Below the pieces are notes generated by a model that was given only the letters and a program-made list of their open reading frames with translations, was not told the DNA's origin and did no database searches. A stretch of DNA of 64,000 bases from Candidatus Zixiibacteriota bacterium (GTDB taxonomy: Bacteria; Zixibacteria; MSB-5A5; GN15; FEB-12): assembly GCA_040753875.1 (NCBI GenBank), contig JBFMDV010000022.1, positions 1 to 64,000 of the forward strand, given 5' to 3'. Shown here piece by piece: positions 31,094 to 61,563 of the stretch; positions within the stretch are counted from its first letter, which is position 1, and each line of letters begins with the position of its first letter. A program made the translations under genes and the position numbers.

Positions 31094-31315
31094 GGGTATG
31101 GTGTCCTTCAATTCCTCACTGACCTTTTCCGCCAGTATCGGCTCCTCCTGTCGATTCCCCTATAGTACATTCGGCGGCCAAACGCAACTTAAAACCTTCG
31201 CTTAAGTCCCCGACCATCAACGAGTTTGCGGCTTCGTCTTTTTCGTACAAAGTCTGGTTTTCCGTATGCCGATACTAAGGGTATCGAGCATTTTCCCCCC
31301 TCAAAGGAGTAATCG

Positions 31316-31861
31316 ATGAGAAGGTACGCCCTGCCTGCTACTATGACTGTTTTCATTGTAAGTTTGGCCCTTTTGGTCTCCGGGTATCCGTCAGATTTCT
31401 TTCAAGCGCGGATCCATAGCGTGGTAGGTTGGGTTCCGAAGTCCGCTTCGGACGAGAAACCTGACATGGAAGATTCGGCCATTCCAGTTTGTAGGTCAAA
31501 ACCCCAACAGAGGATCTATGGGGGAGGGGGTTTTGACAATTCGGGAGCATCGGAGGCGGGAGATGTCAAGACCCCAACCCCGGGTTGGTCCCCTGATGGG
31601 GTCTTGACCTACAACTACCCGACCAACCGATCGGTTCGAATCGAGTACAGTCTCCCGAAGACATCCAGTGTCGATATTTCGGTATTCAACGTGATGGGCC
31701 AATGGGTCGCCGACTTGTCGCGCGGCGAGCAGCCGGCCGGACATCACACCGTACTTTGGAACGGTGCCGACTCTTTCGGCCGCCCGGTCCCTCGTGGCAC
31801 CTACATCTTCCGGATGCGGGCGAATGGATACGAGCAGATAAATACAATCGCCATGAAGTAA
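31316..31861 (+). CDS. Small secreted protein with sorting domain; palindromes inside the gene
   Basis: AAAGGAG precedes the ATG by six bases. A signal-like N-terminus (MRRYALPATMTVFIVSLALL) and a C-terminal type-9-like sorting domain (VRIEYSLPKTSSVDISVFNV ... AGHHTVLWNGADSFGRPVP ... INTIAMK) bracket a middle of about 60 residues. Almost all of that middle is encoded by three palindromic repeats (31426-31464, 31491-31537, 31564-31611), which also occur outside genes. The QNYPNPFNP motif itself is eroded to TYNYPTNRSVRIEY. So the protein is a sorting domain with a repeat-derived spacer and no evident functional domain. It may be a degenerating gene or one tolerating inserted elements. The palindrome at 31867 directly follows the stop. 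Confidence 0.7.
   Translation: MRRYALPATMTVFIVSLALLVSGYPSDFFQARIHSVVGWVPKSASDEKPDMEDSAIPVCRSKPQQRIYGGGGFDNSGASEAGDVKTPTPGWSPDGVLTYNYPTNRSVRIEYSLPKTSSVDISVFNVMGQWVADLSRGEQPAGHHTVLWNGADSFGRPVPRGTYIFRMRANGYEQINTIAMK
31426..31464. repeat. Palindromic repeat, family B (copy 1, inside a coding region)
   Basis: Begins AGGTTGGGTTCCGAAGTCCG and ends CGAGAAACCTGAC around the hairpin GTCCG-CTT-CGGAC. It matches the copy at 31867, apart from paired changes such as GTCCG/CGGAC against GTCG/CGAC, which keep the stem intact. It is read through in frame. Confidence 0.75.
31491..31537. repeat. Palindromic repeat, family C (copy 1, inside a coding region)
   Basis: Arms GTCAAAACCCC and GGGGTTTTGAC form an 11-bp perfect stem, with the outer flank TTGTAGG on the left. 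Copies are at 31564 (opposite orientation) and 61467. Confidence 0.75.
31564..31611. repeat. Palindromic repeat, family C (copy 2, inside a coding region)
   Basis: Arms GTCAAGACCCC and GGGGTCTTGAC with right flank CTAC. Relative to copy 1 the A-T pair in the stem is replaced by G-C on both arms, a compensated change. Confidence 0.75.
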
Positions 31862-31866
31862 ATCGA

Positions 31867-31907
31867 AGGTCGGGTTCCGAGGTCGCTTCGACCGAGAAAC
31901 CCGACCT
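31867..31907. repeat. Palindromic repeat, family B (copy 2, intergenic)
   Basis: AGGTCGGGTT ... AACCCGACCT closes over GGTCG-CTT-CGACC. It starts five bases after the stop at 31861 and may act as a 3' stem-loop of that transcript. Confidence 0.75.
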
Positions 31908-31921
31908 CACTGTTGTCCCGT

Positions 31922-31969
31922 TGTGTCAGGTCCTGCCGTCCGCCACAGGCGGACGGTGTGACCTGACAC
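31922..31969. repeat. Palindromic repeat, family A (copy 1)
   Basis: Outer arms GTGTCAGGTC/GACCTGACAC and inner arms CCGTCCGCC/GGCGGACGG are separated by an asymmetric internal loop (CTG against TGT), with an ACA tip. It lies between convergent genes, nine bases from the stop of the minus-strand gene. A reversed-orientation copy is at 63141. Confidence 0.8.
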
Positions 31970-61466: not shown

Positions 61467-61509
61467 GTCAAAACCCCTTGCGACCTGATTACAGCGTTGG
61501 GGTTTTGGC
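61467..61509. repeat. Palindromic repeat, family C (copy 3)
   Basis: GTCAAAACCCC ... GGGGTTTTGGC, flanked by CTACAAAA as in copy 2 (CTACAAC). Same orientation as copy 2 at 31564. Confidence 0.7.
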
Positions 61510-61563
61510 CTACAAAAACCATTCAGAAACCCACCGCGTAGCGGTGCGGCACCCGGCCGAATC

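Follow-up and report, generated by a model that had tools for sequence, protein, structure and literature searches.

The palindromic elements that make up the middle of one open reading frame (ORF) in a Candidatus Zixiibacteriota genome are best explained, at a probability we place near 0.9, as members of two ordinary GTAG-tagged REP families, here called B and C, the latter in REPIN form, which are read through in a single ORF and whose spread was most likely driven by RAYTs. RAYTs are REP-associated tyrosine transposases of the Y1/HUH type and are IS200/IS605-like. The ORF lies in the window, the whole 64,000-nt stretch of contig JBFMDV010000022.1 that was analysed. B and C are REPs, as evident from the GTAG head, paired stems, dispersed copies and doublet structure, and because B and C carry the GTAG head, C has the REPIN doublet and the families, or close relatives of them, adjoin RAYT genes in related genomes, both families are of the known REP/RAYT kind. 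An earlier note on this DNA had proposed that an unrelated class of palindromes spreads in frame through this lineage; dispersal, and in-frame placement within one ORF, are retained from that proposal, whereas the GTAG head, the doublet and the RAYT flanks speak against a new class.

Layout of the ORF

The ORF joins a signal-peptide-like N-terminus, a REP-encoded middle and a FlgD_ig tail (Table 1), and its predicted product is probably a secreted protein. The FlgD_ig match at the C-terminus scored 40.2 bits, above the Pfam cutoff of 27, with weak CHU_C and Por_Secre_tail similarity also detected in the tail. Codons 1–36 contain no repeat, with no second genomic match before query base 109. 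Of the 192 nt in codons 37–100, B and C together account for 164, B corresponding exactly to codons 37–50 and C to codons 59–99, give or take a base or two. Approximately 55 of the 181 residues are REP-encoded, and about 20 non-REP residues lie between the signal peptide and the tail. Codon usage, scored with a model derived from 35 window ORFs and only approximate for other genomes, was neutral for the N-terminal 36 codons (−1.0) and positive for the tail (+9.1 over 81 codons).

Table 1. Positions of the ORF, its parts and the neighbouring or related palindromes within the window
Feature	Position	Strand	Remarks
ORF, 181 aa, open	31316..31861	+	signal-peptide-like N-terminus, REP-encoded middle, FlgD_ig tail
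AAAGGAG, putative ribosome-binding site	31303..31309	+	6 nt 5' of ATG; read from sequence
Codons 1–36, signal-peptide-like	31316..31423	+	basic start, then hydrophobic; judged by eye on translation
Family B, GTAG-tagged REP, 42 nt (VGWVPKSASDEKPD)	31424..31465	+	model R1, 55.2 bits, E 3.4e-11
Family C, REPIN-like doublet (GTAG REPs in inverted orientation, with spacer), 122 nt, GTAG to CTAC	31491..31612	+	model R2, 64.1 and 62.8 bits
C half, GTCAAAA stem	31491..31537	+	model R2, aligned halves
C half, GTCAAGA stem, inverted	31565..31612	-	model R2, aligned halves
FlgD_ig domain (Pfam PF13860)	31631..31825	+	E 3.3e-10, residues 106–170
Second B REP, non-coding, between convergent genes	31865..31905	+	model R1, 69.4 bits; 3 nt past stop codon
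Third-family palindrome (GTGTCAGGTC...GACCTGACAC)	31923..31969		just behind second B REP
Single C half, GTCAAAA type	61467..61516	-	model R2; outside any spanning ORF of at least 100 aa

Structure of the two families

Covariance models were built for B (R1, 14 sequences) and for one half of C (R2, 25 sequences). The C element of the ORF forms a single long hairpin when folded as DNA (−32.6 kcal/mol vs −18.7 ± 2.5 for shuffled sequences; z = −5.6, none of 200 shuffles as good), and the eight full copies examined, including the window's own, measure 116–128 nt and are composed of two inverted halves in constant order around a short spacer, one half with a GTCAAGA stem and the other with GTCAAAA. 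The earlier description of three palindromes filling most of codons 37–100 is accordingly upheld for the extent covered and for the open frame, but the two palindromes it had assigned to C are the halves of one two-hairpin unit, as indicated by the other full copies and the single-hairpin fold. Aligned C halves carry a TGTAG head in 24 of 25 cases and are paired in 98.2% of stem cells, compared to 96.1% for shuffles, none of 500 reaching the observed value. Both sides are altered in one stem pair, at which 16 of the 25 half-elements have G-C and nine have A-U. Paired stem changes between copies, reported previously, are thus real, although they amount to a single fixed position, by which the two halves (GTCAAGA and GTCAAAA) differ.

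Family B shows compensatory change more broadly, with both sides altered in three stem pairs and pairing in 96.4% of stem cells vs 92.8% for shuffles (again unmatched in 500), while the hairpin taken alone gave a fold z of −1.96, equalled by 10 of 200 shuffles. The head is GTAG in 11 of the 14 aligned copies, ATAG in two and GAAG in one. A pattern search of the window for B at up to three mismatches yielded one match, with none expected by shuffling, and missed the shorter copy at 31865.

Distribution in the source genome and its relatives

At E ≤ 0.01, the models returned 34 B matches and 41 C halves in the source genome, of which 31 and 33, respectively, were kept after the weakest three and eight were dropped; seven of the eight dropped C matches fall on a palindrome that was kept on the other strand. 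The elements examined in the source genome thus number 64. This genome-wide recurrence agrees with the earlier suggestion that the families would be found beyond the ORF, and both also occur in non-coding DNA of the window, as had been noted (the second B REP and the single C half in Table 1). ORFs spanning the elements elsewhere in the genome are mostly non-coding by codon score, and single B copies and single C halves are also common. Copies of B or C were located at or near the ends of five contigs (C21, C25, C26, C28 and C29), so assembly was probably interrupted by these repeats, and the counts given here may be too low.

B-like elements were detected in 41 of 60 relatives (42 of 61 genomes with the source genome included), where they often form close inverted pairs. 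High-scoring C was restricted to the source genome, its 33 kept copies reaching at least 47.2 bits against 38.9 for the best match in a relative, and C-half matches at E ≤ 1e-4 extended to 20 of the 61 genomes, source genome included.

Association with RAYT genes

RAYT genes flanked by inverted GT(A/G)G REPs are described in PMC2817692. To relate B and C to such genes, 30 of 49 Y1_Tnp (PF01797) matches from 10 genomes of relatives were fetched and the loci scanned with R1 and R2. Twelve of these belong to clade A3, a group defined by sequence motif after the flanking matches were known, and eight of the 12 have R1 or R2 matches, in the form of GTAGGTC palindromes, on both sides of the RAYT gene, an arrangement that is the hallmark of REP/RAYT systems. 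The flanks were of B type in three of them (L130, L142 and L146) and of C-like type in five (L131, L132, L133, L138 and L145); one member (L150) was matched on one side and three (L134, L144 and L149) on neither at the thresholds used. Of the other 18 fetched loci, none was flanked on both sides; L124 had C-like matches on one side, and the distant matches seen there and in L140 are not flanks. A clade A3 RAYT additional to the 12 (L151, genome G018), selected since B-like matches adjoined a transposase match, is likewise bracketed by B-type REPs, one on either side. Those C-like REPs that adjoin RAYTs are variants, some of them short (R2 E 2.5e-5 to 6e-3), making the link of C to RAYTs weaker than that of B. 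REPs are hereby tied to one specific RAYT clade in Zixibacteria-type genomes.

The flanking in relatives suggests that clade A3 enzymes may mobilise B and C, which would most likely spread as single-stranded hairpins. While the relatives resemble the established RAYT system in this flanking, the source genome differs, in that the cognate RAYT, a member of the B/C-type clade, was not found in its draft assembly (3.3 Mb, 39 contigs). None of its six RAYT-type genes (L029, L030, L031, L032, L156 and L159) has full B or C flanks, as judged by the models at four loci and by a text search for GTAGGTC/GACCTAC at two.

In-frame insertion and frame openness

For each of the 64 elements of the source genome, spanning ORFs of at least 100 aa were listed and codon usage was scored on either side. 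A positive score on both sides was found for none of the 64, the ORF at 31,316–31,861 included, and this ORF alone combines a plausible start before the element with a domain-bearing tail after it. The ORFs in L007, L004, L037, L093 and others contained no Pfam family. A candidate second case in recG (L048), in which a C half is read through, was rejected given that the likely start lies downstream of the element.

Across seven relatives, 68 B-like elements were located in 40 stretches, eight of them within ORFs that show some coding signal. The majority of these eight are N-terminal read-throughs, and one or two are mid-gene candidates. In genome G008, a B-like REP (L184:1129-1176) is read as VGRVP...EKPDT within an ORF of 184 aa that lies at the end of a contig, with positive codon scores on both sides by the approximate score, and is possibly a second intragenic REP; the element in L188, preceded by 26 codons, is a doubtful mid-gene case. 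A scan of seven of the eight ORFs revealed no sorting tail. The proposal that secreted sorting-domain genes serve as tolerant sites consequently finds no backing in the counts, with one such gene per 64 elements in the source genome and none among the seven scanned ORFs of relatives, and a preference for this gene class is not supported.

Of 186 frames through B copies, 151 are open, against 10 of the 48 frames through the eight full C copies; the C copy of the window is open in exactly one of six frames, the one in use. Since the frame must not only pass C but also rejoin the tail, we estimate that passage by pure luck would be a roughly 5–10% event, improbable without being extreme. On the best explanation, one B and one C copy landed in a short linker between the signal peptide and the FlgD_ig/sorting tail, and the reading frame survived through C being open in the frame used and B being open in most frames. 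Either the linker probably tolerates the REP-encoded residues, or the ORF is a remnant without importance.

Alternative explanations

Slightly short of even odds is our assessment of the ORF as a decayed remnant, in which a secreted protein would have lost its passenger domain, REPs gathered in the scar and the frame remained open by luck. The small number of non-REP residues between signal peptide and tail, the neutral coding score of the N-terminus and the continuation of REPs directly past the stop codon are all consistent with such decay, as is the lack of a detectable orthologue. Although searches with the 181-aa protein matched tails in all 61 genomes, no orthologue was found upstream of the phosphomannomutase gene in 29 relatives (L075, with 366 nt upstream, being nearly uninformative), nor in a second phosphomannomutase-based scan of 21 Zixibacteria-type loci (several incomplete, and L225 without upstream DNA), and none of 34 matches from a pattern scan of genome contigs was a relative. 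A comparison with insert-free orthologues, as the earlier note had envisaged, thus found no counterpart, and eight stretches of relatives held no clear short signal-peptide-plus-tail protein as a model of the ancestor. Decay is harder to reconcile with the intact state of the start signal, the signal-like N-terminal stretch and the tail, which is in frame and preserved to its end, and with the low estimated chance of the frame staying open. That the ORF is instead translated and exported, its REPIN and REP contributing to a live surface protein, appears rather unlikely but deserves tentative consideration; if true, mobile hairpins would have given rise to new coding sequence in a bacterium only distantly related to Rickettsia.

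Two further readings concern the elements themselves. A separate palindromic class outside the REP/RAYT kind, adapted to in-frame insertion in secreted sorting-domain genes, would account for the one gene described here, yet it is very improbable given the GTAG head, the doublet, the palindromes on either side of RAYT genes, the absence of any enrichment among the 64 elements, and the full C copies, which are closed in most frames, unlike an element shaped for openness. An origin of the middle as an ancient protein domain, palindromic by chance, is refuted, as matching copies of its DNA are dispersed over both strands, mostly outside plausible genes; genome-wide nucleotide copies were thus found where the earlier note had allowed for a domain shared by all orthologues. 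Ordinary REP families read through in one ORF therefore remain our preferred reading of B and C.

Relation to known repeat systems

Like published GTAG REPs, B and C have a GTAG head and an imperfect palindrome, are dispersed as several families per genome, and are mostly intergenic, often just past gene ends and occasionally in frame in ORFs. They differ in sequence family, in their occurrence in a candidate phylum and in a modest copy number (about 30 B and 33 C halves). With REPINs, as defined in PMC3116915, and BIMEs, family C shares two inverted REPs, a spacer and a single-hairpin fold, whereas the source genome differs in its many unpaired C halves and B copies. Intragenic GTAG REPs are a rare event that is already published, PMC3733652 having reported that REPs of both the GTAG and the CGTC type occur within ORFs in several species. 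For R. conorii, the same source identifies intragenic repeats with RPE-4 and RPE-6 and counts them as CGTC repeats. Rickettsia palindromic elements are similar in being read in frame in genes, but affect many genes compared to one here, and the CGTC head of RPE-4 and RPE-6 is not shared by B and C in a comparison by head.

A full-text literature search found nothing joining Zixibacteria with 'repetitive extragenic palindromic', and the two families may therefore be undescribed, yet of a known kind. With this analysis, Zixibacteria-type genomes are added to the known range of the GTAG REP/REPIN/RAYT system and of its rare intragenic form, while neither a new element class nor a new targeting rule is established.

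Several REP systems exist side by side in the source genome, where each of the six RAYT-type genes adjoins other palindromes or repeats of its own. A palindrome similar to the third-family palindrome of the window adjoins one of these genes (L159:1963-2009). At another (L031:1894-2017, contig C20), nested repeats adjoin the RAYT-type gene, and a GCCGTCAGGC-type palindrome appears either to split half a C element or to be fused with it.
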